Shown: positions 7,895-38,895, numbered from the stretch's first letter. The stretch is DNA of 64,000 nt from a virus (IMGVR_UViG_3300029922_000013:86859-150858); one strand, 5' to 3'. Translations and numbers: made by a program. The notes: generated from the letters alone by a model not told the origin.

Positions 7895-7904
7895 TAAAGA
7901 TTGC
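7895..7904 (-). promoter_or_regulatory. Putative late promoter core (GCAATCTTTA)
   Basis: On the minus strand this reads GCAATCTTTA, 27 bases upstream of the fibre start at 7867. It is one of nine intergenic copies, all oriented toward late genes. An A-rich AAACCG segment precedes it, as in several other copies. Confidence 0.6.
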
Positions 7905-7956
7905 CGGTTTATCTTTTAACGCTAAATTGCTTACTTTACTAAATAAATTCACATAC

Positions 7957-9054
7957 TTATGGTTGATAACTTGCCAACTGCCACGAAAGTTTGTAATTGG
8001 AGGTGTCTAGTGGCATATTCCAGTCAACTGTAAAAAAGGAAGAGCTTTTGTTCCTAATCAAAATAGGTTGAAATTGTGGGTTGCTATCTGTACTATTTGT
8101 GAATTCTGCCAAAACCACATAATCTCCTGTGGCTAGAGGGGTAGGCAGAGAAATGGTAAGCGTTGTCGCTCCACTTCCTATAGGATACTCCCCTATTTGA
8201 GATATAGCTGCGCTTACCACATAATCTATCGCGTAATCTCCGGTATTTGTAGGATAGTTCCAGGTAGCCGTAAAGCTACTAGTAAGATGTCCAGAGGTCT
8301 TAGCGGTTATGGTAATAGGCTGGTATTCCACTCCGCTGAAAGGATCTAAAAGATTCGTGAATTGGGCCAATACTACAAAACTATTACTGATTTGGTCCAC
8401 CGATAGTGGCACTGTCACGGAAGTAGCACCTAGGCCAACTGGGAAAGTACCGGCTACCCTAGCTGGGGTAACTGAAGTCCCGCTTGAGCTACCACCACCG
8501 ACCAATTGTGTTATGTTACTTTGAGTTAGACCTGAGACCGTTCCAGCATTGTTGAATACGGTTATGTATGCAAATGGAAGAGTATTTGCCGTTGGGAGAG
8601 GTAGTTCAGAAGTTTCATTAACTGCAGCTGCGAGAGAGCCAGCCGAAAAAGAAGGCCCGACAGATATTCCCACGTTAGAGGAAGTATCCAACCACAGTAA
8701 AACCTGCTGATATTGGCCACTAGTAACTGACAGGGCTACGCTAGCACCAGTAGAAGTGGTAACATTTCCAGTAGGTGAAGTTGGTATTGTTGCAGTTGCT
8801 GACGATAAAAAAGGTACCGTATTATTAATGTAAGAGATGCTTCTCTGGATATTTGAATCTGGATTAGAAGGTAGACTCGTGGCTATAAGAACTTCGTGAC
8901 CCAGGTTTATAAAGGGGACCACATTTAGAGGTGGCTCTAATTGAAAATTAATAGAAGTAAGAACTTCTTGAAGAGTCAAACCTGCAGTCGCGGCTATTTC
9001 TGAGAGAAGACCTCTTAATACTATTTGGCGACTATCGATTGGTTTAAATGCCAT
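7957..9054 (-). CDS. Tail fibre/receptor-contact protein with repeated C-terminal domain
   Basis: This is a 365-residue Ser/Thr-rich beta protein. The last 55 residues (QFQPI...WNMPLDTSNYKLSW) closely match the C-terminus of the adjacent 1276-residue fibre (QFQPI...WNMPTDTANYVLSW). A second diverged copy lies internally around 210-275 (YQPITI...WNYPTNTGDY). A duplicated terminal beta domain shared by two fibres suggests a receptor-binding or tip module. It lies 11 bases downstream of the next fibre gene and is probably co-transcribed with it. Confidence 0.7.
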   Translation of the reverse strand: MAFKPIDSRQIVLRGLLSEIAATAGLTLQEVLTSINFQLEPPLNVVPFINLGHEVLIATSLPSNPDSNIQRSISYINNTVPFLSSATATIPTSPTGNVTTSTGASVALSVTSGQYQQVLLWLDTSSNVGISVGPSFSAGSLAAAVNETSELPLPTANTLPFAYITVFNNAGTVSGLTQSNITQLVGGGSSSGTSVTPARVAGTFPVGLGATSVTVPLSVDQISNSFVVLAQFTNLLDPFSGVEYQPITITAKTSGHLTSSFTATWNYPTNTGDYAIDYVVSAAISQIGEYPIGSGATTLTISLPTPLATGDYVVLAEFTNSTDSNPQFQPILIRNKSSSFFTVDWNMPLDTSNYKLSWQLASYQP

Positions 9055-9065
9055 ATATTACCCTA

Positions 9066-12000
9066 TTAATTATTCAGTATTGCTGTCCAAGACAAGACAT
9101 AATTTGCCGTATCCGTTGGCATATTCCATTTCAAAGTAAATCCAGTAGTAGCCTGAGCTGTTACGTCGATAGGTTGGAATTGCGGATTCGTATCCGTGGT
9201 ATTTAAGAAATTGGCAGTCACAGAATAGGCGGTACTAGCGTATGCCGTACTGAGCGTGATAGCCTTACTGGTTGCACCACTCGTCAAAGTCGTTTTACCA
9301 CTAAATATCCCTAACATCGTTAGAACTTGAGCAGCAGTTAGATCTGCAGCATTAGCCGTACTACCAGTATTGTTACCTTTGATAGTATCAGCCGGCATTT
9401 GAGCCAAGTTAGTATTGGTAATGACGTTGGTTCCAGATACACTTGCAGCAGTCCCAGACGTATTCGCCGCGTTATTCGGAATGTCCCCCGAAGCTAAAGC
9501 TCCCCATGCTGGAGCGGCAGATACCGATCCCGTTCCAGTTTGAGTTAGGAATTGTTTTGTGGCCGTGGTATTACCTGCAAGTCTGGCTGGTGCTGGAGTT
9601 GCATTTTCATATATAATATCACCCAATGTGGTCATTGGGTTAGTGAACGGAGTAGACCAAGTCATGGCCGTTGAACCGCCAGCCTGGGATGTTAGGACTT
9701 GGCCAGCACTACCAACGGTTGTTGGGAGATTGAAATTGTATGCGGAAGTTGCACCACCGTTTTGTACGGTGATGGATGCTCCACCTACTCCTGTAACAGC
9801 GAAACTAAGTTGACCTGTTTGGACAGCATTGATACCTAAAGTAGGAGTTGCTGTAAACGAAGGATCTGAACTAGTTCCTTGACCAGCAAGAAGTGTTCCA
9901 GCAGCAGCCGCAGCCAGTTGAGTAATGGCAGAGGTTCCAGCACCAATCAGGACACCGTGATTTGTCAGTGTCGTTTGGCCAGTACCGCCATGATTCACAG
10001 CGATGGTGGTAGCATTCCACGTACCAGTTGTGATAGTTCCAACGGACACCAGAGCCGAAGCCGTAGTTAGCCCACTAAGAGTGGTAAGGGTGGAATTAGT
10101 AGTCGCTACTAGTGAAGTTACCCCAGTATTCGAGATGGTCACGTCTCCAGTTACAGCAGTTGCTGTAGCAACATTTGATCCATTACCGAGCAAGATATCC
10201 GCACTTGGAAGAGATGCTAATTTGGAGAAAGCAATTGCTGCAGAGCCAGATACCTGAGTATTTGTAATTCCACCAGCCTTGACTTCTAGCTGATCACTGC
10301 CATTGATATCTATAGTAGAATTATCAACATTAACTGAAATTTTTGTACCACTTCCACCTGAAATAGCGCCGGTAGTGGAGAATGCAGTGGAAGCGATTTG
10401 TGTTTCAGTAATTCCCGCATTTTTAACGGAGAAAACTCCACTTACTAATTGAAGTGTTATTCCATCTGCCGAGTATGCTCCTGCTGAAGAAAACTGGACC
10501 CAAGTGATAGCAGTCGTGCCAAGTGTCCCGCCTGGTTGGGAAGTGCAGACAAAACCTAAATCGGCATTGACAGTACCTTCTTGTACAAATACAGCAGCCG
10601 CTGGGACTTCAGCCCAAGTATTCATATCTGAAGAACGTGCCCACGCTCCAGAAGCGGAAACGTATATCCCGTTATTTGCTGCTGTGGACTGATTTTTAAC
10701 TAAAACACGAGAAGAGCTTGTGGTGAACCCATCAATTGTTTGCTCACCGGACAGGGTAATGTTAGCCGTAGTAGCTACCAAAACTGCATTTTTCCAAGAA
10801 GTAGCGTTGATAAAATTGTCAACATAGCTTTTGTTGACCAAATCATTTGGATTAACAGGAGTGCTACTATTTGTAGGTGTAAATCCGCCAAGATTGATAG
10901 CGCCAGACATCGTTCCACCAGCAAGAGGTAGATATATAGCCGACAAGCTTGGAATGTCTGCGGAAACGAGAGACCTAAAGGTAGGCTGAGCTGCCGATCC
11001 AGTAGATGGCCCCGCAAACACAGTATTGGCAGTTTGAGTACTAAGGGTAAAAGTTAAAGTTCCGGAACTAGTTACCGGACTTCCAGAAATAGAATAAATG
11101 GGTGTTGAACTTCCGTCCGAGAGGGCGACAGAAGTAACGGTACCACTAGTGGCAGGACTTGCCCAAGATGGGATTCCGCCAGACACTGTAAGTATTTGTC
11201 CTGTGGAACCAATGCCCAACTTGGACAACACGTTGGTCGCGCTAGCGTACAAAGTGTCACCAGTTGTGTACGAACTTAGTCCGGTACCACCATGTGTTGG
11301 TCCTATTGCAGTTCCATTCCACACACCGGTCGTAATGGTTCCGATAGACGCAAGACTAGAAGCTGTGGTAAGAGCAGACAGACTAGTGAGAGTTCCGTTA
11401 GAAGTAGCCACTAAACTGGTAGCTAATGACCCAGCAGTAGTCGTTACGTCACCAGTTAATGTTGGGAATTGACCTGCTTGCAAAGTTCCAGATGCTTGTG
11501 TTGTAAGAGAAACTGTGCCAGAAAGTTGAGAAGTTGGCAGACTCAAAGAAGAAAGGGTGGTTAGCGTGGAATTGGAGGTAGCTGTGATATTAGCAGCATT
11601 CCCAGAAATATTTCCAGATACTTGCGATCCAGGCAAAGAAAGGCTTGAAAGAGTAGTAAGGGTACTGTTACTAGTAGCAGTGATATTGGCAGCTGTACCC
11701 GTTGTATTTTGATTTAACGTAGGAATATCAGCTACAACAATAGTTCTAAATGTAGGTGCTCCTGATGATCCATTAGGTGCAGCCAAAAACGTATTTGCGG
11801 CTTGATTTTGAAAACTAGAAAGAGTTAGGTTACCAGTGCTAGTAATCGGAGTATTTGTAACATTAAACAATCCAGTAGAATCAACTAACCCAACTGAAGT
11901 GACCCCAGTACTTGGAATCGAATAGTAACCTAACGTTCCCGAACCGTTCGTACCATAATATTTCGTATTACCTGGGGTTGCGGAATCGTTAACTAAAGTT

Positions 12001-12896
12001 ACCGTTCCACCAGTATTTACTAAAGAATCTGAGAAGACTAATGCCGAACCGCCTGCTTGCCAGGTAGGAAGGGCTCCGGGACCGTTTGAAGTGAGAACAT
12101 ATCCGCTAGTACCTAAACCTGAAACCTGCTGTAGGGCGCCTGTAGAAGTCAACCCACCTGCTAGTACCGCGTAAGGTGTAAAAGAAGTGTTTCCAGTACC
12201 GCCTTCAGAAACTGAAGCTGGATTTGGACCAGCGCCACTTGGGACGTTCCCAACACCCATCATTTGGCCATCGATCCAAATTTGAGTAGTGCTCATCACT
12301 ATACCAATTTTTAGATCGGATTCGTTAGTACCAGTTGGGGCAGTCGTACTAAAAGCTCCTGCGGAAGTCAGCCAAACTGGCTTGCCGATATCGCCTGTGG
12401 CAAAATCAGTATCACTGGAGCCTAGAGTGTAAGAACCGAATGAGTAAACCGTTATGCCTTGTCCAGCGGATACGCTGGTGGTAGAGAAAGCTATACCAAT
12501 CGCCCAAAACTCGTCTGCCGTAACAGTATTGTAATCGGCTTTGTAAACTTCATCTGTTGATTCTGAGAGAGAGTTCATTCCCCATCGAACAATGTAAGAA
12601 GTATCTGCCGTGAAAGATTCACCAGCAATAAAAGTATTTGATATTGCAGAAGAAGTGGCCACTGAAGACCAACTTAAGTTCCCAGAGCCATCGTTTTTAA
12701 GAAATGTCCCGGCTGTTCCCTGGGCATTTGGCCAGAACACAGCATAGCTGGTAGTAGTGGCGGAAGCAAATTGGGTAAGATTTCCAGAAGTAGCTCCGTC
12801 AACTTGTAATCCCAACACACTTAGGGTGTTGAGAGATAGATCTACAGTTCTAGGGGCACCGTTTTGGAGTTGTAGAAATTTCGAATAAACACTCAT
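9066..12896 (-). CDS. Large modular tail fibre
   Basis: This is a 1276-residue fibre. The N-terminus (YSKFL-x-L-x-NG-x2-R-T-x-DLS-x-NTL) is shared with the fibre encoded at 13065-15377 and probably anchors both to the same baseplate site. Next comes a domain of about 120 residues (about 90-210) that is the C-terminal domain of that other fibre. The shaft is built of repeats such as SVGTITTGTWN...HGGTGQTT and ATSNSTLTTLSSLSLP. The C-terminal 55 residues match those of the 365-residue protein downstream. A GCAATCTTTA motif lies 61 bases upstream of the ATG. Confidence 0.82.
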   Translation of the reverse strand: MSVYSKFLQLQNGAPRTVDLSLNTLSVLGLQVDGATSGNLTQFASATTTSYAVFWPNAQGTAGTFLKNDGSGNLSWSSVATSSAISNTFIAGESFTADTSYIVRWGMNSLSESTDEVYKADYNTVTADEFWAIGIAFSTTSVSAGQGITVYSFGSYTLGSSDTDFATGDIGKPVWLTSAGAFSTTAPTGTNESDLKIGIVMSTTQIWIDGQMMGVGNVPSGAGPNPASVSEGGTGNTSFTPYAVLAGGLTSTGALQQVSGLGTSGYVLTSNGPGALPTWQAGGSALVFSDSLVNTGGTVTLVNDSATPGNTKYYGTNGSGTLGYYSIPSTGVTSVGLVDSTGLFNVTNTPITSTGNLTLSSFQNQAANTFLAAPNGSSGAPTFRTIVVADIPTLNQNTTGTAANITATSNSTLTTLSSLSLPGSQVSGNISGNAANITATSNSTLTTLSSLSLPTSQLSGTVSLTTQASGTLQAGQFPTLTGDVTTTAGSLATSLVATSNGTLTSLSALTTASSLASIGTITTGVWNGTAIGPTHGGTGLSSYTTGDTLYASATNVLSKLGIGSTGQILTVSGGIPSWASPATSGTVTSVALSDGSSTPIYSISGSPVTSSGTLTFTLSTQTANTVFAGPSTGSAAQPTFRSLVSADIPSLSAIYLPLAGGTMSGAINLGGFTPTNSSTPVNPNDLVNKSYVDNFINATSWKNAVLVATTANITLSGEQTIDGFTTSSSRVLVKNQSTAANNGIYVSASGAWARSSDMNTWAEVPAAAVFVQEGTVNADLGFVCTSQPGGTLGTTAITWVQFSSAGAYSADGITLQLVSGVFSVKNAGITETQIASTAFSTTGAISGGSGTKISVNVDNSTIDINGSDQLEVKAGGITNTQVSGSAAIAFSKLASLPSADILLGNGSNVATATAVTGDVTISNTGVTSLVATTNSTLTTLSGLTTASALVSVGTITTGTWNATTIAVNHGGTGQTTLTNHGVLIGAGTSAITQLAAAAAGTLLAGQGTSSDPSFTATPTLGINAVQTGQLSFAVTGVGGASITVQNGGATSAYNFNLPTTVGSAGQVLTSQAGGSTAMTWSTPFTNPMTTLGDIIYENATPAPARLAGNTTATKQFLTQTGTGSVSAAPAWGALASGDIPNNAANTSGTAASVSGTNVITNTNLAQMPADTIKGNNTGSTANAADLTAAQVLTMLGIFSGKTTLTSGATSKAITLSTAYASTAYSVTANFLNTTDTNPQFQPIDVTAQATTGFTLKWNMPTDTANYVLSWTAILNN
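11521..11710 (-). repeat. Tandem coding repeat in fibre shaft
   Basis: Within the 1276-residue fibre the segment NITATSNSTLTTLSSLSLP occurs twice in tandem, separated by about 17 residues. Related ATSNGTLTSL and ATTNSTLTTL segments occur elsewhere in the shaft. Such repeats can change fibre length by unequal recombination. Confidence 0.6.
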
Positions 12897-12957
12897 GTTA
12901 TCTTCCTCTTAACTGCATTAATCTTTTTTGAGAAATTCGTCATCTATCAACCCTAGT

Positions 12958-12967
12958 TAAAGATTGC
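12958..12967 (-). promoter_or_regulatory. Putative late promoter core (GCAATCTTTA)
   Basis: The minus strand reads GCAATCTTTA preceded by AAAACG, 61 bases upstream of the 1276-residue fibre start. It lies between the terminator of the upstream fibre gene and this gene's leader, which supports a separate transcription unit. Confidence 0.6.
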
Positions 12968-13007
12968 CGTTTTCGAGGCGTTCAAAGGGTTTATATCATA
13001 ATAAAAA

Positions 13008-13034
13008 GGGTTGACCACCAATGGCAGTCAACCC
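13008..13034 (-). terminator. Intrinsic terminator after fibre gene 13065-15377
   Basis: GGGTTGAC (13008-13015) and GTCAACCC (13027-13034) form a perfect eight-pair stem with an 11-base loop. Read on the minus strand it is followed by TTTTTATT. This is a classic Rho-independent terminator 31 bases past the fibre stop. Confidence 0.8.
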
Positions 13035-13064
13035 CTTAATATCATTAATTAATTGGGGTAAATG

Positions 13065-15377
13065 TTAATTTATTCCCATAGTTTGAACTTGGACCATGAT
13101 GTTATTGGCATCTTTAACCATACCAACCTTAACAACAGCCGAAAGAGTTGCTGTAGGAGCGGTAGTGGTACAAGCGCCAGATGCACCCAGATAGAGTGGA
13201 AGTCCTGGGGTGAATCCATGCGAAGGTACATTGATATAACCTTCTTCGGTCACAGTGACTGCTCCACCAGCAGAAACTGCACCTGCTGGGTAAGCTAGAC
13301 CGATAACGTAGAAGTTATCGTTAGTGGTGGTATCGTTATCAGCTTTCCACATATGGCCAGCAGTGCCGCCGCCATCAGTTGTACGTTCATATCTCAAGGC
13401 ATACAAAGTACTTGCCGACAAAGCCTGATCTGAAATTTCAGAAGTGGCATTTTTAGGAGAAGACAACACTTCGATAGTGCTTCCAGCTCCATTTTGATCG
13501 GTAGTAATTCCGTCCGTGACAGCGCCGAGTTTAGCAGCAGTTACGGCAGCATTGTTGATCTTAGAAGTAGTAACAGCATTTGCAGCAATCGTAGTTGCAA
13601 AACTACCAGTACCGGAACCAGTTACATCACCAGTCAAGGTGATCGTTTGGTCGCCAGTGTTGGTTCCGCTTGAACTTCCGGAGAAGTTAGAAGCAGAAAT
13701 TGCACCAGAGAAGTTCGCAGCAGCAGCCGTAATGGTTCCAGTGAGAGTAGGGCTTGCACTGAAAACAACGTTTCCAGTACCAGTCGTACCGGTAACCGTG
13801 TTACCTTGGATGGCTGCGATAGTAGCAGCTTCAGATTGCGACTGAGTAGCAGCAGAAGTCGTAACGTCACCAGTTAACTGATTGATAGCGTTAACAGTAA
13901 CAGCGCCAGTTGCACCGTTTACGGAAACAACGCCGTCAGCAAGAGGGGAACGCTGCCAAATAGTGCCATTGTAGATGACGAAATCGCCAACATAGTAGCT
14001 TTGTGAACCGCTACCAAGATTTTGGGTACCAGCGACAGATACGCGATAAACCCAACCAGCAGTTCCGGTGCCGTCAGCAAGAGTTGGAGTGTTGGTAGAA
14101 GCATCCCATGCTCCTTTGTACTCCATGACGCTAGAAGGCAATTGGCTAAGAGGAACTTTACCGGAACCATCCAAAGAAGCTACGCCGTTAGCAGAACCAA
14201 CTTCGGTTTGGGTTACGTAAGTAGCAGACAAATCTGGGATATCTGCAGAAACCAAAGATCTGAATCCTGGTTGAGCAGCAGATCCGCTAGATGGACCAGC
14301 AAATACTTTATTTGCAGACTGAGTGTTAAGAGTAAAGGTCAGATTACCAGTGCTGGTAACAGGACTGTTAGAGATGGTGTAGATTGGTGTACTAGAACCA
14401 TCAGCTAAACCGACAGAAGTTACGGTACCGCTCGTTGCAGGGGCTACCCACGATGCGGTCGACCCATTGGAAGTAAGAACGTACCCAGAAGTACCTATAG
14501 CAAGGTTGCCGTAAGTATTGGTACCGGTTCCTAAGATCAATCCACCAGTTGCAGTAGCTGGGGCAAGTGCGTTAAATGCAGCTGCAGCTGAAGTCTGGCC
14601 AGTACCGCCGTTTGCTATTGCAATCGTAGTACCATTCCAAGTACCGCTGGTGATTGTCCCAACGGAAGTTAAGCTGGAAGAGAGTACGTTAGATGCCAAA
14701 GTAGAGCCAGTGAGAGTTCCAGCAGGAGCAACTACGGCATTACCGCTAGCAGCAGTGATCAATCCCTTAGCATTTACAGTAAAGGTGGGAATGGATGTTG
14801 AAGAACCGAAACTGCCCACATTTAGGTTGACAGTCGCCAAAGTAAAGGCAGCGGCTCCCGGACCACTCGCTGTGCCATCTCCGGTCAAGCTAGTGATAGC
14901 ACTCGTGGAAAGGTTGGCGAGGGCGTTATCGATACCAGCCAATGCGCCCATGACTGTTGGAGCAGTAGGGGTGAAAAAGTTATAAGTAGCCGTATCTCCA
15001 ATGAGAGAAGACCCTGCATCAACCCCACTAGTAAGAGTGGTTGTTCCTGCAGTTGGGGTTTGTGACCCACTACCGCTAGTCAGGGTGGCCATGTTGTTGG
15101 AGTGTGCTAGGTTCCAAGCAGCGATTTGAGCTGCAATCGTAGTCGAACCATTGAACACTAGGGCAATTGAGTTGCCGGCTGCTCCAGGGTTATTTGCCGT
15201 AATCGTTACGGAAGTAGACGTTCCAGGAATCGTCCCAGTAAAGGAGCTATAGGCTCCTGTTTGTGAGAGAAGTGTTGTTCCAACTTCGAGAGCTTGGACC
15301 TGGAGAGTATTTGCTGACAAGTCAATAGTTCGTGCTACGCCATTGACTAATTCTAAAAACTTACTGTAAGTAGACAT
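13065..15377 (-). CDS. Modular tail fibre, paralogue of the next fibre
   Basis: This is a 770-residue fibre whose N-terminal 30 residues are clearly homologous to those of the 1276-residue fibre. The shaft contains SVGTITSGTWNGTT and NGGTGQTS repeats and a LTGDVT-type region. The C-terminal 120 residues (LYALRYERT ... NNIMVQVQTMGIN) correspond to a domain that sits near the N-terminus of the 1276-residue fibre, so modules have been shuffled. A motif variant (ATAATCTTTA) lies 35 bases upstream and a strong terminator follows. It is probably a side or long tail fibre. Confidence 0.8.
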   Translation of the reverse strand: MSTYSKFLELVNGVARTIDLSANTLQVQALEVGTTLLSQTGAYSSFTGTIPGTSTSVTITANNPGAAGNSIALVFNGSTTIAAQIAAWNLAHSNNMATLTSGSGSQTPTAGTTTLTSGVDAGSSLIGDTATYNFFTPTAPTVMGALAGIDNALANLSTSAITSLTGDGTASGPGAAAFTLATVNLNVGSFGSSTSIPTFTVNAKGLITAASGNAVVAPAGTLTGSTLASNVLSSSLTSVGTITSGTWNGTTIAIANGGTGQTSAAAAFNALAPATATGGLILGTGTNTYGNLAIGTSGYVLTSNGSTASWVAPATSGTVTSVGLADGSSTPIYTISNSPVTSTGNLTFTLNTQSANKVFAGPSSGSAAQPGFRSLVSADIPDLSATYVTQTEVGSANGVASLDGSGKVPLSQLPSSVMEYKGAWDASTNTPTLADGTGTAGWVYRVSVAGTQNLGSGSQSYYVGDFVIYNGTIWQRSPLADGVVSVNGATGAVTVNAINQLTGDVTTSAATQSQSEAATIAAIQGNTVTGTTGTGNVVFSASPTLTGTITAAAANFSGAISASNFSGSSSGTNTGDQTITLTGDVTGSGTGSFATTIAANAVTTSKINNAAVTAAKLGAVTDGITTDQNGAGSTIEVLSSPKNATSEISDQALSASTLYALRYERTTDGGGTAGHMWKADNDTTTNDNFYVIGLAYPAGAVSAGGAVTVTEEGYINVPSHGFTPGLPLYLGASGACTTTAPTATLSAVVKVGMVKDANNIMVQVQTMGIN

Positions 15378-15412: not shown

Positions 15413-15422
15413 TAAAGATTAT
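15413..15422 (-). promoter_or_regulatory. Putative late promoter core (ATAATCTTTA)
   Basis: The minus strand reads ATAATCTTTA, keeping the AATCTTTA core but not the GC before it. It is preceded by TATAAAACAAGGG. A similar TATAAAACAAAT precedes the copy at 18722-18731. It lies 35 bases upstream of the fibre start at 15377. Confidence 0.5.
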
Positions 15423-15929: not shown

Positions 15930-18656
15930 TTAGAAGAGGTACCAACCAGTTCCAGTGCTAATTATTGAGAATGATTCGTATTGAACCATAGTGGATACGG
16001 TGCTCAGACCGTCAATCAAGTCTCCGCCGTTACCCTGAATAACCATCGCATTGGCTGAAGAATCGATTTTTTTCATATAAAAAATCCTCCCTGTGTTGCC
16101 GCTCGCTGTAGGTAACGTAAATGTCAGAGTTCCAGTTGTCGCATCTGCTGCTAAGAAACAGTCCGTGGTTAAAACAGAGTATGAACTGGTCTTAACAGAA
16201 ACTGGCACGGGACCGCCAGCTGCATTAAAGCCAGGCGCACCCGTAGGACCGGCGACTCCTGGAGGACCTTGAGGACCGGGAGTGCCTCCGCCACCAGCTC
16301 CACCGCCACCACCACTTAATCTAAGTTCAAGCTCATCGCCCACCACAAGACCGTAATGGATCTGAATTTCGTTACTTGGAGCATCTAATGTGCCGACTTC
16401 GGTATAGGCGCCGCTCTCTAAGTCTAGGAACTGGCCATTTAAGAAAACTTGTAGAGTTCCTTTTCCTACCGTGTAATACTGGACTGCATTGGATTCTCTA
16501 GTATTGTTCGGAAGGAAAATATTCGTGCCAGGGGTAACTGGACCAGTTATAGATGTTGGGGGAGTAGCTCCTGAAGCAACGATCTCTACTACTTCGTCAT
16601 AAGTAGGATTATCTAGCGATTCTATAATGCTTGATATTTCTTGATCTAACTTTTTAATAGCTAGAGTTAGATTATCACCATCTTGAATGATGAAGTTTCC
16701 AACACCAGTTCCGGATGTGGAAACAAAAATTGCAAACGGAGGGCCAATATTAAAATCGGCTGGAGAAAACGTAGTACCAGCAGAGTTGTTGGTAATAGTA
16801 ACTGCGTTAGCAATGTTAGTTGCAGTGAAATCTTTGAAAAAAGTTCCATTTAAAGCTGTGACCAACGCGGCAGCGGTTTGAGTAGATGTTTGCCCAGTAG
16901 CTACATCCCACTCAATTCCAGTGGCGTTGGCAACTGGCATTGGATTTATGCCGGTTCCATCTTTGTTAACCCAAACGTAATACTCTCTGCCGCCAGCAGA
17001 ATAAATTAAGAAATACTGATCAGATGTCAATGTACTAGCATCGCCAGTTGTAACGTCGGTAACTTGTTTTGAGACCGTAGGACCGTTACCTTCATATATA
17101 TTGTAGGCAGATACGTAAAAAGGAGTAGTGGAAGACTCAATTTGGCTACCAACGTAGGTCAAGACATTTTGGAGCTGTGGACCAGAAATTTCTTCGGAAT
17201 CACCTTGTTGAAGATCAGTTCCTAGCCATTTAACATAAACTCTAGGAATTGCTCCGCCATCATCTTCTCGAACAAATAGCCAGAAGGTGCTTGGGCTGAT
17301 TGGTACCGCACCGCGACCTGCAAGTTGAATATCTCTCAAGCCACCCGTAACGCCTGGCAAAGTATATGAGCCGTAGGCGTACAAAGAGGGAGCACCTGAA
17401 GAGCTTGTACTAGATCCTGTAAATACTTGAGTTAAAGTTACTTGAGAAGAAGAGTTAATGGTTTGAATCTGGTAATATCCAGCATGAGTGCTAGAAGCCA
17501 GACGAATCCAATCACCAAATCCATTTGCTGTGACGCTATAAAGTCCAGAAGTCCAAGCAACATTTCCAACCGAAGTTACGACAGCGCTTGAGTTGGTCCA
17601 AATCAGATTTGGCGCAACGGGAACATCTCTGGTAAGTTCTATGTAGGCTACTTCATTATCACTTAAAGTGACAGTAGTACCAGAAGGATTGGTTGCGATT
17701 TGATAACTTAAATTTGCACCAATTATCTTCAGATTTATTGGACTAGACCAGTTTATGAGGCCGGCTGTAGTAGCGCTATGAGTGATGGCACCAGTTCCAG
17801 TCATTACAGTTGCTGTAGCATCTTCTCTAAGAAGAGGAACCGACCCAACGTTACTGGATGTGAATGAGTACCAATAAGGGCCACCATTAAGGCCCAGCAA
17901 TTGGGTCATTACGGCGTCCATCCAATCCTTGAGATCTGTTATGCCTTTATCGCCACCAAAAAATGGATTGCTGGAATTGGAAGTAGTGGTAGTGTTATTT
18001 TCGGTCTGACCTTCAGGCCATGGAAACGTGTGGAATGGGTTTGGACTTGCTCCACCAGTTCCTAAGCGTAATAGAAGTGGTCTTGAATCAGTAATAGAAA
18101 CGACGTTATTGCTAGAATCTGTTTGGATTATAGCCAAAGGCAAAACATTTGTTGCCCAAAGGGTGGCCGTGATCACGAACTTGTAGTTCATGGTTATGGC
18201 CGCTGGAGCTATACCCTCGTCTTCTTCGTCACTGGTGGGGTCCCAAAAATAACGCTGAGTATCGGTCGTAGCATCTTGAAAACGGTAATAGTCTATCCCA
18301 ACATAGTTGTTGGCATTAGGGACAAAAGACCCAATCACGTTGGCGACTGTGGCAGCATTCAGGGTGACATTAGGAGTACCAGTTGGGACTAGAAAGAAAG
18401 TACCTGATTGAGAAGCGGTGGTATGTAGTAGTGAGCTATTGGCAACGATGACCTGCAAATTAGAGGCGGCGCCCGTAATAGGGGCAGCAGACATGTTTAT
18501 AGCGAAACCATTGATAATATAGGGGGTATCTGGTCCAGATATGAGAGCCTCTGCGACTAGATCAAAGTCTGCAGACGCAGCGCTTTCGATCGCACGCATG
18601 TCCGAGACTTCTTCTCGCATTTGAGAAAGCTGATTAACTCTCCTAATAATAGCCAT
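15930..18656 (-). CDS. Tail fibre/baseplate-connecting protein with collagen-like stretch
   Basis: This 908-residue protein has a helical, charged N-terminus (about 1-40) followed by beta-rich regions. Around residues 785-815 there is a Gly-rich linker followed by collagen-like G-x-x triplets (GPQGPPGVAGPTGAPG), typical of trimeric phage fibres. A short beta C-terminal domain ends in Trp-Tyr-Leu-Phe. An N-terminal region that is not repeat-like suggests attachment to the baseplate. It is the first gene of its unit, with an AATCTTTA motif 65 bases upstream. Confidence 0.72.
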   Translation of the reverse strand: MAIIRRVNQLSQMREEVSDMRAIESAASADFDLVAEALISGPDTPYIINGFAINMSAAPITGAASNLQVIVANSSLLHTTASQSGTFFLVPTGTPNVTLNAATVANVIGSFVPNANNYVGIDYYRFQDATTDTQRYFWDPTSDEEDEGIAPAAITMNYKFVITATLWATNVLPLAIIQTDSSNNVVSITDSRPLLLRLGTGGASPNPFHTFPWPEGQTENNTTTTSNSSNPFFGGDKGITDLKDWMDAVMTQLLGLNGGPYWYSFTSSNVGSVPLLREDATATVMTGTGAITHSATTAGLINWSSPINLKIIGANLSYQIATNPSGTTVTLSDNEVAYIELTRDVPVAPNLIWTNSSAVVTSVGNVAWTSGLYSVTANGFGDWIRLASSTHAGYYQIQTINSSSQVTLTQVFTGSSTSSSGAPSLYAYGSYTLPGVTGGLRDIQLAGRGAVPISPSTFWLFVREDDGGAIPRVYVKWLGTDLQQGDSEEISGPQLQNVLTYVGSQIESSTTPFYVSAYNIYEGNGPTVSKQVTDVTTGDASTLTSDQYFLIYSAGGREYYVWVNKDGTGINPMPVANATGIEWDVATGQTSTQTAAALVTALNGTFFKDFTATNIANAVTITNNSAGTTFSPADFNIGPPFAIFVSTSGTGVGNFIIQDGDNLTLAIKKLDQEISSIIESLDNPTYDEVVEIVASGATPPTSITGPVTPGTNIFLPNNTRESNAVQYYTVGKGTLQVFLNGQFLDLESGAYTEVGTLDAPSNEIQIHYGLVVGDELELRLSGGGGGAGGGGTPGPQGPPGVAGPTGAPGFNAAGGPVPVSVKTSSYSVLTTDCFLAADATTGTLTFTLPTASGNTGRIFYMKKIDSSANAMVIQGNGGDLIDGLSTVSTMVQYESFSIISTGTGWYLF

Positions 18657-18721: not shown

Positions 18722-18731
18722 TAAAGATTCC
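18722..18731 (-). promoter_or_regulatory. Putative late promoter core (GGAATCTTTA), leftward
   Basis: The minus strand reads GGAATCTTTACC, 65 bases upstream of the 908-residue gene. With the plus-strand copy at 18756-18765 it forms a ten-base inverted repeat (GGTAAAGATT/AATCTTTACC) between divergent genes: each gene has its own copy facing it. Confidence 0.65.
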
Positions 18732-18755: not shown

Positions 18756-18765
18756 CCAATCTTTA
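18756..18765 (+). promoter_or_regulatory. Putative late promoter core (CCAATCTTTA), rightward
   Basis: The plus strand reads CCAATCTTTACC, 19 bases upstream of the start at 18785. It is one of only two plus-strand copies seen, and both face plus-strand genes. A TTGACT at 18749 overlaps it, but no correctly spaced -10 box follows. Confidence 0.6.
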
Positions 18766-18784: not shown

Positions 18785-19177
18785 ATGAGGTATTCCACAG
18801 TGGGGAAATCCAAGGACCGTACTGGTGAAATTAGTAGGGAACAGAGATTTGTTAAGGAAAATCAAGCACTTAAGCGTGAAAATAGTCGCCTTCGTAAACT
18901 ATTAGCTCGCATAGATCTAGATCGTTATGATCAAGTACGTGAAATCATAGAAGAACATTATTCCGAAAGGAAAAATGAGGGACAAGAGATTCTTGATAAA
19001 ATGAAAGAAGAGTGGCGTTGCCACCAGTGTAGAACCGGTTTGTTGGAGATTTTTCTATTTAATAAAATAAATGAAACCTATTATTATCGTAAATGTAATG
19101 GTTGCACAAATCGTACCAAAAGCAAGAAATACACTCCGAGTGTTCGTGGGATCATAAAGAAAGAAGAAAGTAAATAA
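18785..19177 (+). CDS. Coiled-coil zinc-ribbon protein, possible DNA/RNA-binding regulator
   Basis: The 130-residue protein has a basic N-terminus, a coiled coil (about 20-70) and a C-terminal ribbon with CHQC (79-82) and CNGC (about 104-107), four cysteines spaced as for one zinc. Its tail is Lys-rich. This architecture is common in small nucleic-acid-binding regulators. It is driven by its own AATCTTTA motif, opposite the tail genes. A role in late transcription is possible but not shown. It overlaps the next gene by one base. Confidence 0.65.
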   Translation: MRYSTVGKSKDRTGEISREQRFVKENQALKRENSRLRKLLARIDLDRYDQVREIIEEHYSERKNEGQEILDKMKEEWRCHQCRTGLLEIFLFNKINETYYYRKCNGCTNRTKSKKYTPSVRGIIKKEESK

Positions 19178-19395
19178 TGGAATTTGTAGAAGGCCAAGTT
19201 GTTATTTGTGGAACAGGACAATGTGGAACTATAGCCCAAAAATCGGGCAAAGAGATCTGGATATTATTGAGAAACGGAGACCTTTTTGTAGGTCAGGACT
19301 ACCAAATCAGGGTTCCTCAATCCCAAGAAGATCTAGATTCCTGCCCTTTAAACGTAGATCGTGTTGAGACCAAAAGAGAAACTAGGGAGCGTTAA
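19177..19395 (+). CDS. Hypothetical small SH3-like protein
   Basis: The 72-residue product begins with short beta strands (GQVVICGTGQCGTIAQK...EIWILLRNGDLFVG) that look like an SH3/KOW-like barrel, followed by an acidic/basic tail. It overlaps the convergent minus-strand gene by four bases. No family is recognised. Confidence 0.55.
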   Translation: MEFVEGQVVICGTGQCGTIAQKSGKEIWILLRNGDLFVGQDYQIRVPQSQEDLDSCPLNVDRVETKRETRER

Positions 19396-20144
19396 GTCAC
19401 CCACCACTTCGAATACGGATTTTGGTCCAATCCTTTAGGATTGTAGTAGATCGCAGCCACATCGTTCATCTTATTGGGGTAATCCTTAGCCAGTCTGCGA
19501 AGCCATATCAAAGAAGCTAACAAACACATAAAGCTAGTTTTCTTAGTGTTGTTTTGCAAATGCCATGCTAAACGTCTAGAATCGGTATCTCCAGTAGGAG
19601 TTCCTATGCAAGAAATGGCAATAGAACCTGCAGCTACAAAGTAAACTGGAAAAGACAGGATTCTAATCAACCAGTGAAAAGGATTTAGCAATGATGGGAA
19701 AGCTGCAGATACCATAGCAGCCACCAACTGCGGCTGTCTAACAAGAAAACTTTGCAAAGTCTTCGTTCCAGGATTCACATTATTCAAAAAACCTAGGTAT
19801 TTTATGCAAGCCCAAAATAGTGTTCTGGGGATATCGGTATTTTTTAATTCAATGCAACCATTAAGTACCGCTAAAATATTATCTGGACCGTCTTGACCGT
19901 CATTTTGACCTACAGGAACACGATTGAGCAAACCTTCAGGCCCAATACACCTATCTATCATATGTTCAAAGCTAAGTTCGTCTGATACAGTAAGTTGACC
20001 ATTTTTCTTAAGAATAATATACATCTCAGAGGTATACATTGTACCATTATCTGACCCACTTTGATTTGATGCCCAAGATCCGGGCTGGGGCGAATTTAGT
20101 CCATTACCGTCAATATAGCTCTTAAAATCATCTATAATATCCAT
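19392..20144 (-). CDS. Hypothetical late protein with hydrophobic segment
   Basis: The 250-residue product has a polar Ser/Asn/Gly-rich N-terminus and a hydrophobic segment around 155-180 (FHWLIRILSFPVYFVAAGSI), and ends in KWWVT. The ATG lies only five bases after a GCAATCTTTA motif, and no SD is visible. If the motif is a promoter the message is nearly leaderless, or the true start is further in. It lies between fibres and baseplate genes, so it is probably virion- or lysis-related. The family is not recognised. Confidence 0.6.
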   Translation of the reverse strand: MDIIDDFKSYIDGNGLNSPQPGSWASNQSGSDNGTMYTSEMYIILKKNGQLTVSDELSFEHMIDRCIGPEGLLNRVPVGQNDGQDGPDNILAVLNGCIELKNTDIPRTLFWACIKYLGFLNNVNPGTKTLQSFLVRQPQLVAAMVSAAFPSLLNPFHWLIRILSFPVYFVAAGSIAISCIGTPTGDTDSRRLAWHLQNNTKKTSFMCLLASLIWLRRLAKDYPNKMNDVAAIYYNPKGLDQNPYSKWWVT

Positions 20145-20149: not shown

Positions 20150-20159
20150 TAAAGATTGC
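20150..20159 (-). promoter_or_regulatory. Putative late promoter core (GCAATCTTTA)
   Basis: The minus strand reads GCAATCTTTA preceded by AAAAGC. It ends five bases before the ATG at 20144, unusually close for a promoter of a gene with a normal leader. Confidence 0.5.
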
Positions 20160-31860: not shown

Positions 31861-31870
31861 TAAAGATTGC
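31861..31870 (-). promoter_or_regulatory. Putative late promoter core (GCAATCTTTA)
   Basis: The minus strand reads GCAATCTTTA preceded by TAAACT, 15 bases before the ATG at 31845. It lies between divergent genes and faces the baseplate gene. Confidence 0.6.
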
Positions 31871-31902: not shown

Positions 31903-32472
31903 ATGACTAATTTTCTTACCGTAGTGTTTGTTTTTATTGGATTTTTTTGTGGAGCGCACTTGCTCTCCCATCAAAATCGACCTAAAAAAGCTCCAGAATA
32001 CGTAGGGGTCGCTCCAGCCGCTAAACCATACTATGATGAGTATAAAAGGCTAGCCAAAAATGAGGGCATAACTTTTAAACATGATATAACTATTGGATTT
32101 AAAAGGATTAATATGGGAGATGCGATAGGGCTAACCACTTATGGAAGAAACTGGAGAGAAATAGACGTAGACAGTGACTATTGGGAAGATGCAACTGACG
32201 AGTCCAAAACCATGGTTCTGTACCACGAACTCACACATGCTTTTTGTGACAGAGGCCACGACTATGGGGACGGCGTGCCGTATCCAGTAAGCGAGGAAGC
32301 CAGGAGTGACCAAAAAAAGAAATGCCGGAAGGAAAGCTGCATAACTCCTGGATATTATAAAGATGAGTGCCCTTTATCTCTTCTATATCCCGCTATTTTT
32401 GACGATTACTGTTTCTTAATTCATCGCGACGATTATTTAAAAGAAATGTTTCAAAGGTGTATCCCATACTAA
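31903..32472 (+). CDS. Membrane-anchored HExxH metallopeptidase-like protein
   Basis: I choose ATG 31903, with AGG six bases upstream. The 189-residue product begins with a hydrophobic segment (FLTVVFVFIGFFCGAHLL) that may be a signal or anchor. Residues around 108-114 read YHELTHA, an HExxH motif. A cysteine-rich C-terminal half (several Cys in CRKESC...YKDEC...DDYC...RCIPY) suggests an exported, disulfide-bonded domain. It could act on the envelope during lysis or entry. It is encoded against the tail operon, with a TATAAATA sequence at 31887-31894. Confidence 0.6.
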   Translation: MTNFLTVVFVFIGFFCGAHLLSHQNRPKKAPEYVGVAPAAKPYYDEYKRLAKNEGITFKHDITIGFKRINMGDAIGLTTYGRNWREIDVDSDYWEDATDESKTMVLYHELTHAFCDRGHDYGDGVPYPVSEEARSDQKKKCRKESCITPGYYKDECPLSLLYPAIFDDYCFLIHRDDYLKEMFQRCIPY

Positions 32473-33082: not shown

Positions 33083-33085
33083 AAA

Positions 33086-33625
33086 TTATTGTGCCGATAT
33101 AGGTATTGGGATAGGGGTTAGTGCAGGTGGGGCCGCTAAACCAATACAAAGAAAGGTGAACGCAAGGGTAGCGTCTCTAATCGATGTAGCAAATTGAAGT
33201 GTTTTGTCGCTGGCAGTGGGAACGCTCACTAATCCAGCACTGAGCGCCGCTGTTGCAGCTGGGATTGTGATAATTGTGGCCGCAGCCGTAGGGAGTGTGT
33301 TGGAGTCCAAGCTTGCTGATCCTATCCATATAGGGTTCATTACGGTGCCGGGAGTTATAATACTAGCGGTTACAGCAGTGGTCCAATTAGTGACAAAAAT
33401 TGGTATCCAAGAATTGTCCGGTACTGGTAGCATGGCTAGCATTAAGGGAATCATTACGGCATTATTAAATGTAAATATACCGGGACTTCCTGTGCTTCCT
33501 GCCTGTGTTTGATTCATGAATCCAGCTAAAGCTCCAACAAAAGCTGCGGCCCCCGATGCTGGATCAGTTGTTGGGCTTAAAGCTAGTAGTTGACTTTTAA
33601 AGTCAGCAGCAGTGGATAACGTCAT
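33086..33625 (-). CDS. Hypothetical Ala/Pro-rich structural protein
   Basis: The 179-residue product is rich in Ala, Thr, Ile and Pro, with long stretches of low charge (around 110-160) and a proline-rich end. The hydrophobic character could reflect a buried virion position or membrane contact. Its ATG overlaps the spike stop (ATGA). It lies within the hub/spike unit, so it is probably a virion component. Confidence 0.6.
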   Translation of the reverse strand: MTLSTAADFKSQLLALSPTTDPASGAAAFVGALAGFMNQTQAGSTGSPGIFTFNNAVMIPLMLAMLPVPDNSWIPIFVTNWTTAVTASIITPGTVMNPIWIGSASLDSNTLPTAAATIITIPAATAALSAGLVSVPTASDKTLQFATSIRDATLAFTFLCIGLAAPPALTPIPIPISAQ

Positions 33626-34584: not shown

Positions 34585-34586
34585 TT

Positions 34587-36482
34587 TCAGCTCTCTGGGT
34601 CAGTGGGTTGAGGAAAGGGAAAGTTTTTAATTTGGCTAGGATCTATATCAATATTATTGCTTCTATCAAGAACATCCTGCGATTCAGATACCCCAGGCAG
34701 TATTTGGTCCAAATTGTTGTAGTCATTTTGTCTGTCTAAGTAGCCACTAGTATTAGTCATTTCAGAGTATTGTGTCACACTGCTAGGACTATCCAAGGCC
34801 ACTCCTTGGCTTAATTTCAAAGTAGTCTTGAATCTTTTTATACCGCTACTTGGGTCTATGTTACAAGAATGAATGATGCTTTCTATATGAAACACAACGC
34901 CTTCAAATTGTAAGTTATCCCCAATGCAGATTGGTTGGGACACGCCAAGCATTTCTATGGTGCCGTTCAATTTGAGCTGACCACCTATGGTGGCATCCCC
35001 CATAATTTTGGCCCACGACGGGCTAAGTGGGCCTGTTTGTACATAAGGATCGAACATGTTGCTTACTATTGACGGTCTTAGACCACTTCTGGTTACATCT
35101 TCGGAATCAAATGCGTAATTACCAGCACCCACTTCTTGGGCCGGTCCCGATCCCTGTTTGTCATTTATGGCAGCTCTGGAATAATACTGATAAAAATTGA
35201 TTCTAGCCACCTCGTCTCTTCCAATATCGTAACTATAAACCAAAGCAGAGTCCACTTTCCAGCGTGGGATCGTTAAAAATTGTGTCACAGGTATGGTAAC
35301 ATTTGTTCTAGCTTTAAAATCTTGAGTAGTGAACGGAATTTGTCTAAAAACTACAGTAGGGTAAATCTTATTATCTGTTCCTAATTTATAGCAAGTAAAA
35401 ATTTCATTAAGCGGTGCATTAGTATATTGATTGAGAATGGACCAAGCTTTTACGGAATTCCAATACTCTGGCATGAAAAATGACAGACCCTGCAGTTGGG
35501 TAGGAGTAAAATGAAAGCCAGGACCACTGAAATTAGAGTTGAATTTTGGATTCAAGCCTTGGGCCATTGTCTGGTTACTGCTTCCCGAATACCCCTGAAC
35601 TCCAAAATTGTAGTTGTAGATATCTTTTGCGGCTTTTGCGTTAGATATTCCCATTAGCTTGCCTACCAAAGCAGGTATTAAAAATTGCGTGTTGGCTGTA
35701 GGTAAAAAAGCTTTAAAATCATCACTGTAATTTGTGGTGTTTATTCCATTTCCGATAAAACTGGTGATCAGAAGGGCTACTATATCACGTAATTGAAAAT
35801 AACCTTTACTATTAGCCAACTGAGCCCAATCAGAAGATAGCTTTCTTATGAAGATACCAAAATTAGACTCTGACCCTGATGCCAGTAGATTTTGATTGAA
35901 ATAGATGGTATTATTAAATTCTGTAAAACCATAACCATCTATTTTATAGATGACTTGTTTAGTGCCCGATTGCTCGTTAATAGAAATATTTTTACTGACT
36001 CTTTGTATCTTGTAAAGACCCTTAAAACCATCATCTGGTCCATTTATTGGAGAACCATTTCTGGCATTTTGGGCTACTCTGCGGGCATCAGACTCCCAGT
36101 TTAGGATGTTTACGAATACAAAGTCACCTGGGGCTACAGCGGTCAGATAATTGACATCGGTTTCTTTGAATGTAGCTTCCATAGAAGGAGTCAAAGTGCC
36201 TTTATTCATACCTGTTGTTACAGCTATGCAATCACTTTCAATGACTAAAGGATCGTTTTGTTTAACTTCTAGAGCCGAATTGTTATTATTTCTAAAAGTG
36301 TCTCTATTCTCAAATCTAATGAAGGTTAGAACCCAAGTAGGACTGCTTTGGTTCACAAATGATTCAGGATCATTAGATGTAGAATCGTTTGAAAAATTAG
36401 GATTGATGGCCGAATCAACCACAGCTTGCTGGGAATTAGGCAGTAAGTCTACGGTGTATGCACTTACTCCATTCATTACCAT
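34587..36482 (-). CDS. Baseplate hub protein (gp27/gpD-like)
   Basis: The 631-residue protein lies between tape measure and spike. Beta strands near 90-190 (including GDFVFVNI and GLYKIQRVSK) and a C-terminal block (GTIEMLGVSQPICIGDNLQF, then VVFHIESIIHSC) have the look of hub proteins that cap the tube and hold the spike. The C-terminal 60 residues are a polar, likely disordered tail. The start overlaps the tape-measure stop; GGTGG precedes the ATG. Confidence 0.72.
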   Translation of the reverse strand: MVMNGVSAYTVDLLPNSQQAVVDSAINPNFSNDSTSNDPESFVNQSSPTWVLTFIRFENRDTFRNNNNSALEVKQNDPLVIESDCIAVTTGMNKGTLTPSMEATFKETDVNYLTAVAPGDFVFVNILNWESDARRVAQNARNGSPINGPDDGFKGLYKIQRVSKNISINEQSGTKQVIYKIDGYGFTEFNNTIYFNQNLLASGSESNFGIFIRKLSSDWAQLANSKGYFQLRDIVALLITSFIGNGINTTNYSDDFKAFLPTANTQFLIPALVGKLMGISNAKAAKDIYNYNFGVQGYSGSSNQTMAQGLNPKFNSNFSGPGFHFTPTQLQGLSFFMPEYWNSVKAWSILNQYTNAPLNEIFTCYKLGTDNKIYPTVVFRQIPFTTQDFKARTNVTIPVTQFLTIPRWKVDSALVYSYDIGRDEVARINFYQYYSRAAINDKQGSGPAQEVGAGNYAFDSEDVTRSGLRPSIVSNMFDPYVQTGPLSPSWAKIMGDATIGGQLKLNGTIEMLGVSQPICIGDNLQFEGVVFHIESIIHSCNIDPSSGIKRFKTTLKLSQGVALDSPSSVTQYSEMTNTSGYLDRQNDYNNLDQILPGVSESQDVLDRSNNIDIDPSQIKNFPFPQPTDPES

Positions 36483-38833
36483 TTACCACCAGATGGCCCA
36501 ATCATGGGTGAGCTTTTGCCAGCAGATGAAGAATTGGCTTGAGGCTGAGATTTGCCCAGTTTAGCTGCCATGGCATTGTAGTCTTCGGCTTTCATTTTTC
36601 CTTCTTTAACGGCTGCTGCGGCGGCGCCCAACGTAAGTATAGATACAGTAAGTTTGTCTACATCTGTGGCTGTTGGAACTAAATTTTTACCGAAAGATTC
36701 GAAATTTTGTATAAATTTTAATTGACCTGCCGCTATGGCAGCATTCTCTTGATCCGCCAATTTGGGCGTTTTAGGTTCTTCTGGAGCTAGTGGGCGAGGG
36801 AAGAAACCCTTACCTTTTGGAGTAAGAGATGCACCAGCCGCATTCATTTCCTGTGCTTTAGTTATTTCTGGAGCAGCGCCTGTACCGGTAGCCGTATACC
36901 ACAAACCTGTTTGTCTGGCAGCAGATTCTATTTCGGCAGGAATATCGGCTCCCAAACGTTTAGCCTCAGACATAGAGTTGTATCCGGCTTTTTCTAACCA
37001 GGATCTAACTGCCTTGGCATTCTCTTGTGTATGTCCCGTGATATCTGAACCGGCAGCAGTTGTGGAATCCTTCATTCCCATTATATCTTGTGCCGTGACT
37101 TGCTTGCCACCGCGCTTATTGAGCTGATACATGGCTTCCTGAACAACTGGATGCTGTTCTGTTAAATCTGCTGGTGATATCTTTTTCAACTGCTCAAATA
37201 GCATGGCCCCTTCGTCGCCCATGCCCGCTAGGCGTCTGCCTACAGGATTTCTCAACATCGCAGCTCTTTGCATTACGCTAAAAGGACCACCCTGCTGACT
37301 ACCGAGTTTTTGATAAGCCTCATAAGCAGTCTTTGCGGCTTCCATACCTGCAGACGTATTTTCTACAAATCCTCTGCCGAATTGCTCGCTAATGCGAGAA
37401 ACATCTCCTGGGGTTTTAGCACCACTTCTAGATACATATTCACTAGTAGTTTGCGTAAAATCTCTTAATAAGTCAACTAAGTCGCTATCATTCAGACCTA
37501 TCTTAAAAGCTTCTCCGATAATCTTGGCGGAAGCTTCTTTAGTCTCTTGTGCTCCACCCATAGTCTTACTAATATTGGCCAGCATCTGGGGAGCGTTAGT
37601 TAAATTATAATCTTTTTGCAACTGAAGCCCGTAACCCGATTCTCTGCCAACTCTAGCAGATCCACCAGCTCCCATTATAGCTTGCTGCATTTGAGTAACT
37701 TGCTCTTCAGTAAATTGAGTAGTTCCCCCATATGACATATTTCTTTGCAGGAAACCACTCTTACCCATAAAACCTTGATCAGAAAGGCCTAACCCTCTTT
37801 GAGCACCAAGATTTCTTTGATAATTATGAGCATTATACTCTGCAGCCGCTTTTTTAAGAGGGTCAGCATTCTCTTCGGCTTCTTGCGACCGTTTTACGAA
37901 CTCGGCTAAATCCTGAGAGGAAAGCTTTTCATAAGATTCCGTATCGCCGAGTGTCTTGGCTCTTTGTTTCGAATCGAGCAATTTCATGCCAATACCGCCA
38001 GCGGCTACTCCTAGGCCGCCTGCCACCAATCCTGCTGGAATCCCTACGCCAGTTGCACCTAAAAGTCCCGCAGCTCCCAAGCCGACTGCACCTGCCCCTA
38101 CCAAAGCATTTCCAGCCCACTGTTGGGCGGTGTCGAAAGTTCTTTGGCCTTGCCAAGCCTTCCTAGCATTAGCCATTGCTGCCGCTCTTTCAGGCATAAA
38201 AGCTAAGTGATAAGGATCAGCGGCGGCTTTTAATTGATCGCCAACAAGCGCATTGTTGGAACTCCCCATAGCAGAAGCCGCATCTAATGGAAGCCTACTT
38301 ATTCCAGCCACAGCAGCCCCAACACCAGTGATTATGGCAGCTATCGCGGCTCCCATTTTAGGTATATCTGCCGCAGAATTTCTAATTTTTTTATTGGATT
38401 CTTCATCCATACTAGCAATTCTTGTTGTAATAGCAGCAGCTTTAGCCATTGTCTCCGTTATTTGTTCTTGTATCTTCAGCTTTTTTTCATCGTTGCCCAA
38501 AGCCTGCTTCGCTTCGTAACTCATCTCCTTTTCTTTTTGGAGAATCTTGTTTTTTTCATTCAAAAGTTCAGTATACTTGCCCTTAGTTAAATTGAGATCT
38601 TTAACCAAATCATCTCTATATTTCTTCTGAGATTGTTCGTATTGCTGTTGAGAAGGGGCTCCAGGCATCGTACCTAGCCCATGCTGTTGCATTTTTTGCG
38701 ATATTTGCCTAAGTTGGGTCATTTGCTGAGGACCAGAATACATTTGATTCAGCTGTTCCTGCATTTTTTTGATAGTAGCATTGAACTGCTTATCGTCTAG
38801 ATCAAGTGATATTTTGAGTTTTTTCTCAGCCAT
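36476..38833 (-). CDS. Tail tape measure protein
   Basis: In this 785-residue protein the N-terminus (KLKISLDLDDKQFNATIKKMQEQL) is typical of tape measures, followed by coiled coil to about 155. Hydrophobic helical segments lie at about 155-185 and 240-285 (Gly/Ala-rich), and a largely helical Gln/Ala-rich remainder follows. At the usual ratio of about 0.15 nm per residue this predicts a tail of roughly 120 nm. It is the first gene of the hub/spike unit, with a GGAATCTTTA motif 52 bases upstream. Confidence 0.8.
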   Translation of the reverse strand: MAEKKLKISLDLDDKQFNATIKKMQEQLNQMYSGPQQMTQLRQISQKMQQHGLGTMPGAPSQQQYEQSQKKYRDDLVKDLNLTKGKYTELLNEKNKILQKEKEMSYEAKQALGNDEKKLKIQEQITETMAKAAAITTRIASMDEESNKKIRNSAADIPKMGAAIAAIITGVGAAVAGISRLPLDAASAMGSSNNALVGDQLKAAADPYHLAFMPERAAAMANARKAWQGQRTFDTAQQWAGNALVGAGAVGLGAAGLLGATGVGIPAGLVAGGLGVAAGGIGMKLLDSKQRAKTLGDTESYEKLSSQDLAEFVKRSQEAEENADPLKKAAAEYNAHNYQRNLGAQRGLGLSDQGFMGKSGFLQRNMSYGGTTQFTEEQVTQMQQAIMGAGGSARVGRESGYGLQLQKDYNLTNAPQMLANISKTMGGAQETKEASAKIIGEAFKIGLNDSDLVDLLRDFTQTTSEYVSRSGAKTPGDVSRISEQFGRGFVENTSAGMEAAKTAYEAYQKLGSQQGGPFSVMQRAAMLRNPVGRRLAGMGDEGAMLFEQLKKISPADLTEQHPVVQEAMYQLNKRGGKQVTAQDIMGMKDSTTAAGSDITGHTQENAKAVRSWLEKAGYNSMSEAKRLGADIPAEIESAARQTGLWYTATGTGAAPEITKAQEMNAAGASLTPKGKGFFPRPLAPEEPKTPKLADQENAAIAAGQLKFIQNFESFGKNLVPTATDVDKLTVSILTLGAAAAAVKEGKMKAEDYNAMAAKLGKSQPQANSSSAGKSSPMIGPSGGKW

Positions 38834-38885
38834 TTCAAGACCTTACGTTTAGTAAACAATTAATAAAAATAGGAACATCCTAGGT

Positions 38886-38895
38886 TAAAGATTCC
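38886..38895 (-). promoter_or_regulatory. Putative late promoter core (GGAATCTTTA) inside a hairpin
   Basis: The minus strand reads GGAATCTTTAACC, 52 bases upstream of the tape measure. The copy lies within an inverted repeat: GGTTAAAG and CTTTAACC pair perfectly over eight bases around a seven-base loop, with flanking CTAG on both sides. Confidence 0.55.

Follow-up and report, generated by a model that had tools for sequence, protein, structure and literature searches.

Does an octamer that recurs between the genes of a virus mark one class of its promoters, and if so, what reads it? The DNA considered here, referred to as the window, is a stretch of 64,000 nt corresponding to bases 86859-150858 of a 150,858-base viral record (G000), the remainder of which was also analysed. 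A sequence-only reading of the window had listed nine copies of AATCTTTA, all lying between genes and oriented to the next gene, and had proposed a phage-specific late promoter. Our exact search recovered all nine in such positions, the seven on the minus strand exactly as listed and the two on the plus strand with starts at 18758 and 55070 rather than 18756 and 55068. It also returned a tenth copy (1203..1210, minus strand), which lies in antisense orientation inside a gene, contrary to the earlier impression that genes hold no exact copy, and which is a chance occurrence outside the system.

The total number of octamers in the window (10, compared to 5.1 expected, with at least 10 in 5 of 100 shuffles) is of no significance by itself. 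Regarding placement, the upstream non-coding sequence of the window holds 8 octamers, versus 0.20 in dinucleotide shuffles (maximum 3 in 1000 runs) and a mean of 0.21 for the 280 anagrams of the octamer. This count misses a ninth upstream copy (31861): the longest ORF taken for the baseplate gene opens with an improbable TTG at 31974, and in-frame ATGs are present past the box. The scan of the whole 150.9-kb record bears out the concentration ahead of genes: 19 of 27 copies are located just upstream of genes and point at them, in upstream sequence that makes up 2.7% of the record positions (binomial log10 P -23.6), and AATCTTTA ranks first among all 8-mers for such placement. Two further copies (31861 in the window and G000:26545) count as upstream after trimming of an over-long ORF. 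Here, the 280 anagrams average 0.57 upstream copies and dinucleotide shuffles 0.58 (maximum 4 in 1000 runs), versus 19 for the octamer. Eight relatives were fetched whole and, together with the record itself, form a set of nine genomes with 94 upstream copies, compared to an anagram mean of 3.9. As the comparison of intergenic regions suggested by the sequence-only reading shows, the octamer ranks first for upstream placement in four of the eight relatives (G003, G012, G013, and G015), second in G014 and third in G009, and is kept at orthologous genes. Among 62 related loci from viral contigs, 134 of 250 octamers fall within the non-coding part, which represents 6.3% of the sequence.

On the minus strand of the window, an exact AATCTTTA at 7895..7902 precedes a gene for a 1008-aa protein (4841-7867), whose start codon lies 27 nt downstream and has a Shine-Dalgarno sequence. 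The copy at 12958..12965 stands before a 1276-aa gene (9066-12896; start 61 nt downstream), that at 15413..15420 before the minor tail protein gene (13065-15377), and that at 18722..18729 before a 908-aa gene (15930-18656) that is 39% identical to gene 139197 of Myxococcus phage Mx1, a member of the Mx1 baseplate cluster; this box is kept in 7/8 orthologues. Back to back with it, so that each strand of a divergent gene pair has one copy, the plus-strand box 18758..18765 faces a 130-aa gene (18785-19177; start 19 nt downstream; box kept in 3/5 orthologues). The box at 20150..20157 (minus) precedes a 250-aa gene (19392-20144) which is probably leaderless, with its ATG 5 nt past the box, and the box at 31861..31868 (minus) precedes a baseplate assembly gene with an in-frame ATG at ~31845 and is kept in 5/8 orthologues. 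At 38886..38893 (minus), the box is followed after 52 nt by the start of a 785-aa gene (36476-38833) and is kept in 5/7 orthologues. Finally, the plus-strand box 55070..55077 serves a 239-aa gene (55082-55801), again probably leaderless (ATG 4 nt past the box), and is present at the one orthologue found. The targets had been described as virion or other late genes, which is true of most of them (baseplate, tail, or fibre-like), whereas the gene behind 55070, to which no function could be assigned, sits within a block of small, probably early genes. Tandem promoters are seen at 12958 and 38886, where a host-type extended -10 box, ATGATATA, is located 34 nt upstream of AATCTTTA; judging from such tandem boxes, part of the 'late' genes may also be read earlier.

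Gene functions were assigned via comparison with Mx1 and PHROGs. The record begins with small genes, followed by tail tube and sheath, then capsid, terminase, and portal, then protease and GroEL; it continues with helicase, sigma factor, SbcD, SbcC, DNA polymerase, SSB, and RecA, followed by fibre-like and baseplate genes and again small genes. Across the whole record, 17 of the 19 upstream boxes are followed by genes of the two virion modules, one by a gene of the right small-gene block, and one by a boundary gene. None of the 37 replication genes and none of the 34 left small genes has an upstream box, and no exact AATCTTTA stands directly upstream of the major capsid protein operon. The box is conserved at 43 of 76 orthologues of box genes, compared to 23 of 524 orthologues of other genes (P 3e-28), and among these 23, baseplate genes are the commonest. 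Several genes of the record are noted here in their own right. A homing-endonuclease-like gene (G000:48781-50370, plus strand) separates, as an insertion, the major capsid gene from the terminase gene, and the replication block contains a 237-aa gene of the subtilase family (Peptidase_S8; L013:855-1568, plus strand; Pfam E 3.2e-22). An mCpol (minimal CRISPR polymerase) domain (Pfam E 1.1e-17) is present in a 559-aa gene of the tail module (L010:13208-14887, minus strand; G000:33208-34887), whose partial Mx1 counterpart (33963) has a YAATCTT promoter; a signal-nucleotide enzyme within a phage would merit separate study.

The major capsid protein is distantly SPO1-like, and the nearest named phage is Mx1, with 52.6% identity. 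In Mx1 (55% GC), AATCTTTA is absent upstream of genes. Instead, 15 plus-strand genes, compared to 1.4 expected (P 9e-12), have YAATCTT in the 70 nt ahead of them; the portal, tailspike, and kelch protein genes and two baseplate genes belong to this set. None of the 164 minus-strand genes, to which the replication genes belong, has such a site. At three sites (genes 36563, 75289, and 121405) AATCTT is found exactly 6 nt ahead of the ATG. The sigma factors of Mx1 and of the record share only ~35% identity; thus, the hexamer was kept while the sigma diverged. A different sequence, TTAGACGA, was discarded as an Mx1 promoter, its copies lying mostly within the Mx1 tRNA cluster. The Mx1 genome paper reports no promoter analysis (PMC10720576), and a literature search for the octamer together with 'promoter' had no phage paper among the matches listed. 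Homologues of the sigma factor at L256, L258, L259, and L261 lie on contigs assigned to a Deltaproteobacteria MAG from a bog, which together with Mx1 gives a weak hint of Myxococcota-like hosts.

An information profile of 101 sites from the nine genomes reveals A-R-n-M-R-Y ahead of the box and no conserved -35 element; of the A-rich pattern AAA-n3-G-(C/G) previously described at this place, only the trend persists. Downstream, C is avoided at nucleotides 5 and 6 after the box (1/92 at each, leaderless sites removed). Start codons with a Shine-Dalgarno sequence lie at least 12 nt after the box, boxes in general stand about 12-60 nt ahead of starts, and nine sites constitute a leaderless class with the start codon 4-5 nt past the box. 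Measured from AATCTT in ten genomes, the distance to the start codon peaks sharply at exactly 6 nt (16 sites), falls to a trough, and rises again into a broad hump that begins at 17 nt. Because the 6-nt peak equals the spacing between a sigma70 -10 hexamer and +1, it points to leaderless mRNAs with AATCTT at -12 to -7. Host-type TGATATA/TGGTATA boxes of the same genomes provide an internal control for this argument, as their start codons peak at 8 nt, i.e., 6 nt past the hexamer TATAnn. The predicted functional core is AATCTT, not GCAATCTTTA; the trailing TA falls into the discriminator, and some relatives have lost it; the box occurs in the variants AATCTTTA, AATCTTAA, and AATCTT. The hexamer has A at -11 and T at -7. 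The host sigma70 pattern (TTGACA and TATAAT with 17-nt spacing) is not matched, given the hexamer AATCTT and a profile without a -35 signal. The sequence-only reading was right to set the box apart from both the sigma70 boxes and the T4 late box.

The same record encodes a candidate reader, which gives concrete form to the earlier suggestion that a phage factor may read the box. Just outside the window, between helicase and SbcD, lies a sigma70-family gene (G000:64796-65842) for a 348-aa protein that matches phrog_351, RNA polymerase sigma factor (E 1.8e-6), and whose Mx1 counterpart (WNM70309) bears the annotation 'putative sigma factor'. Of 26 relatives, 24 have this gene, and the other two are fragments of 52-72 kb. 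A single-protein scan of viral contigs gave no match, whereas the alignment-based scan yielded 80 loci. A 45-member profile of the sigma retrieves RpoD and SigA chains (E 3.7e-8), and some of the alignments reach from region 2 as far as the beginning of region 4. In line with this, a fold search with the AlphaFold model (pLDDT 84, pTM 0.62; residues 292-311 of low confidence) retrieved sigmaA chains of RNA polymerase complexes as the best solved-structure matches (E 5.6e-5, TM ~0.4). At the 43 loci where the end was read, the ORF stops at or within ~15 residues of 'LP..RKVLRLKG', the beginning of region 4.1, and region 4.2, the helix-turn-helix that reads the -35 box, is absent in all members with the C-terminus read. 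A Pfam search of the genome for sigma region 4 accordingly found no match, because the region is missing. By analogy with T4 gp55 and phiEco32 gp36, which share this loss, it would not exclude the protein from the sigma70 superfamily.

In most relatives the sigma gene is preceded by TGATATA or TGGTATA and not by AATCTTTA, which fits a gene made before the late phase. Searches for core RNA polymerase subunits of the cellular type found none, which makes use of the host core enzyme the most economical assumption; a search for a T7-type polymerase gave no match anywhere, which is uninformative either way. Two relatives, G020 and G016 (L104, L105), contain a second weak stretch resembling the N-terminal part of the sigma (29% over 59 aa), possibly a paralogue. 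Directly after the sigma gene follows a conserved gene of ~105 aa (L012:5887-6207, plus strand; G000:65887-66207), with a GroEL gene nearby (L012:781-2547). By eye it resembles a GroES-type cochaperonin/barrel, and it has no Pfam match; we do not claim it as a separate sigma4.

We propose that AATCTTTA is the promoter of the phage family's late regulon, consisting of a -10 element only and read by host RNA polymerase together with the phage sigma factor, a reading to which we assign a probability of about 0.88. The host core enzyme would carry the phage-encoded sigma and recognise AATCTT at -12 to -7 in the absence of a -35 element, which a sigma without region 4.2 could not read, and transcription would start ~6-7 nt after AATCTT. 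The resulting late mRNAs would have leaders mostly shorter than 60 nt and none at some genes, and the sigma itself would be made earlier, from its host-type extended -10 promoter. Orientation, placement ahead of virion-module genes, conservation at orthologues, and the start-site signature all support the phage-specific late promoter proposed at the outset. Because sigma and box occur together, region 4.2 is missing, and the geometry is that of a -10 element, we infer that the sigma reads the box, and late timing and use of the host core are likewise probable. The phage-modified polymerase that the sequence-only reading also considered would not be required.

It is improbable, and yet the best of the alternatives, that the late promoter is read by another phage activator or a modified polymerase with host sigma, and that the phage sigma serves a middle class. 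The small phage proteins are mostly of unassigned function, and a second conserved upstream motif (TTGACTT.. / TGATATA) implies more than one promoter class. However, this motif reads as a normal host sigma70 promoter (TTGAC, extended -10 TGnTATAAT), for which a phage sigma is unnecessary, and for this reason we also rejected it as a phage-specific middle promoter. Moreover, a sigma without region 4.2 suits a promoter without a -35 element, and the A, the T, and the sigma70 spacing to +1 that AATCTT retains are expected of a sigma2 reader. The host-type extended -10 boxes, TTATGATATA or TGTGGTATATT, are found in the record and its eight relatives (e.g., L012:4780-4796). At many genes they lie exactly 8 nt before the ATG (15/69 TGATATA sites) without a Shine-Dalgarno sequence, and such genes, the sigma gene included, apparently give rise to leaderless early or middle mRNAs.

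An RNA-level element of the late 5' leaders, e.g., a translation enhancer or a processing or stability site, could also be sense-oriented and lie between a transcription-unit boundary and the start codon, as the box does. It is nevertheless very unlikely, since the distance from the box to the Shine-Dalgarno sequence downstream of it varies widely, the ATG of one class follows the box after only 4-5 nt and leaves no room for such a sequence, the avoidance of C 5-6 nt downstream marks a start site, the divergent pair 18722/18758 has one copy on each strand, and the window has no Rfam match. That an AT-rich octamer is over-represented by chance in AT-rich intergenic sequence would suit the merely twofold excess of the window total, but is already refuted by anagrams and dinucleotide shuffles of upstream sequences, which give ~30-fold fewer copies, and by conservation at the relatives' orthologous genes, and retains hardly any probability.

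The proposed late promoter with its phage sigma has close parallels. In phiEco32, gp36 reads promoters of the type tAATGTAtA with a start 6-8 nt downstream, and the missing -35 element is explained by the missing region 4 (PMC8948821). Its middle/late promoters likewise show a single highly conserved element, matching AATCTTTA at 6/8 positions, and the reader is the host core with a phage sigma lacking region 4 homology; unlike the sigma described here, gp36 has 214 aa, belongs to phrog 1740 rather than 351, and comes from another phage lineage. T4 late promoters consist of an 8-bp box without a -35 element, and gp33 takes the place of sigma domain 4 (PMC2988020). Similar are the position of the box at the -10 place and the AT-rich sequence downstream in this gp55/gp33/gp45 system (PMC2988020, PMC7892883), the lack of domain 4 in gp55, and a sigma gene that shares its genome region with the SbcC/SbcD genes, whereas the box sequence differs and gp55 (185 aa) falls into phrog_234. 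No counterparts of gp33 or gp45 were identified, and a search for the bacterial beta-clamp family as a T4-like partner found none. By analogy, the system appears to work like late transcription with phiEco32 gp36 and T4 gp55, with no kinship to either detectable.

Late promoters of Kayvirus, TGTTATATTA, also have only a -10 element and no -35 (PMC7698491). They too serve virion genes of an SPO1-like contractile-tailed phage and have a long -10, and early genes use host sigma70 promoters, but their box is an extended -10 of the TATATT type, in contrast to AATCTT. SPO1 itself (gp28 middle, gp33/gp34 late) shares a distantly related capsid and the similar order helicase-x-SbcD-SbcC, and gp28 belongs to phrog_351 together with the present sigma, unlike gp34 (phrog_1025). 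SPO1 promoters are two-element promoters, in contrast to the single element described here. In hhalign comparisons, the sigma profile showed no similarity to the single gp36 and gp55 sequences and no signal with single gp28 or gp34 sequences; these negatives are of little informative value, gp28 being sigma-like too.

A late promoter class with a candidate sigma would thus be new for this phage family, although its kind is already known. Somewhat more speculatively, and at slightly less than even odds, uncultured SPO1-like myoviruses may share a separate lineage of region-4-less sigmas, in which YAATCTT is kept at ~35% sigma identity, virion mRNAs are both leadered and leaderless, and no T4-type clamp is involved. 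The finding allows early and late genes to be read off the map of a widespread phage family that is seen almost exclusively in metagenomes, and it names the likely reader of the late signal. It would add, after T4 gp55 and phiEco32 gp36, a further case where sigma region 4 and the -35 element are lost together, and, as Mx1 is a cultured phage of Myxococcus xanthus, the system is directly testable.
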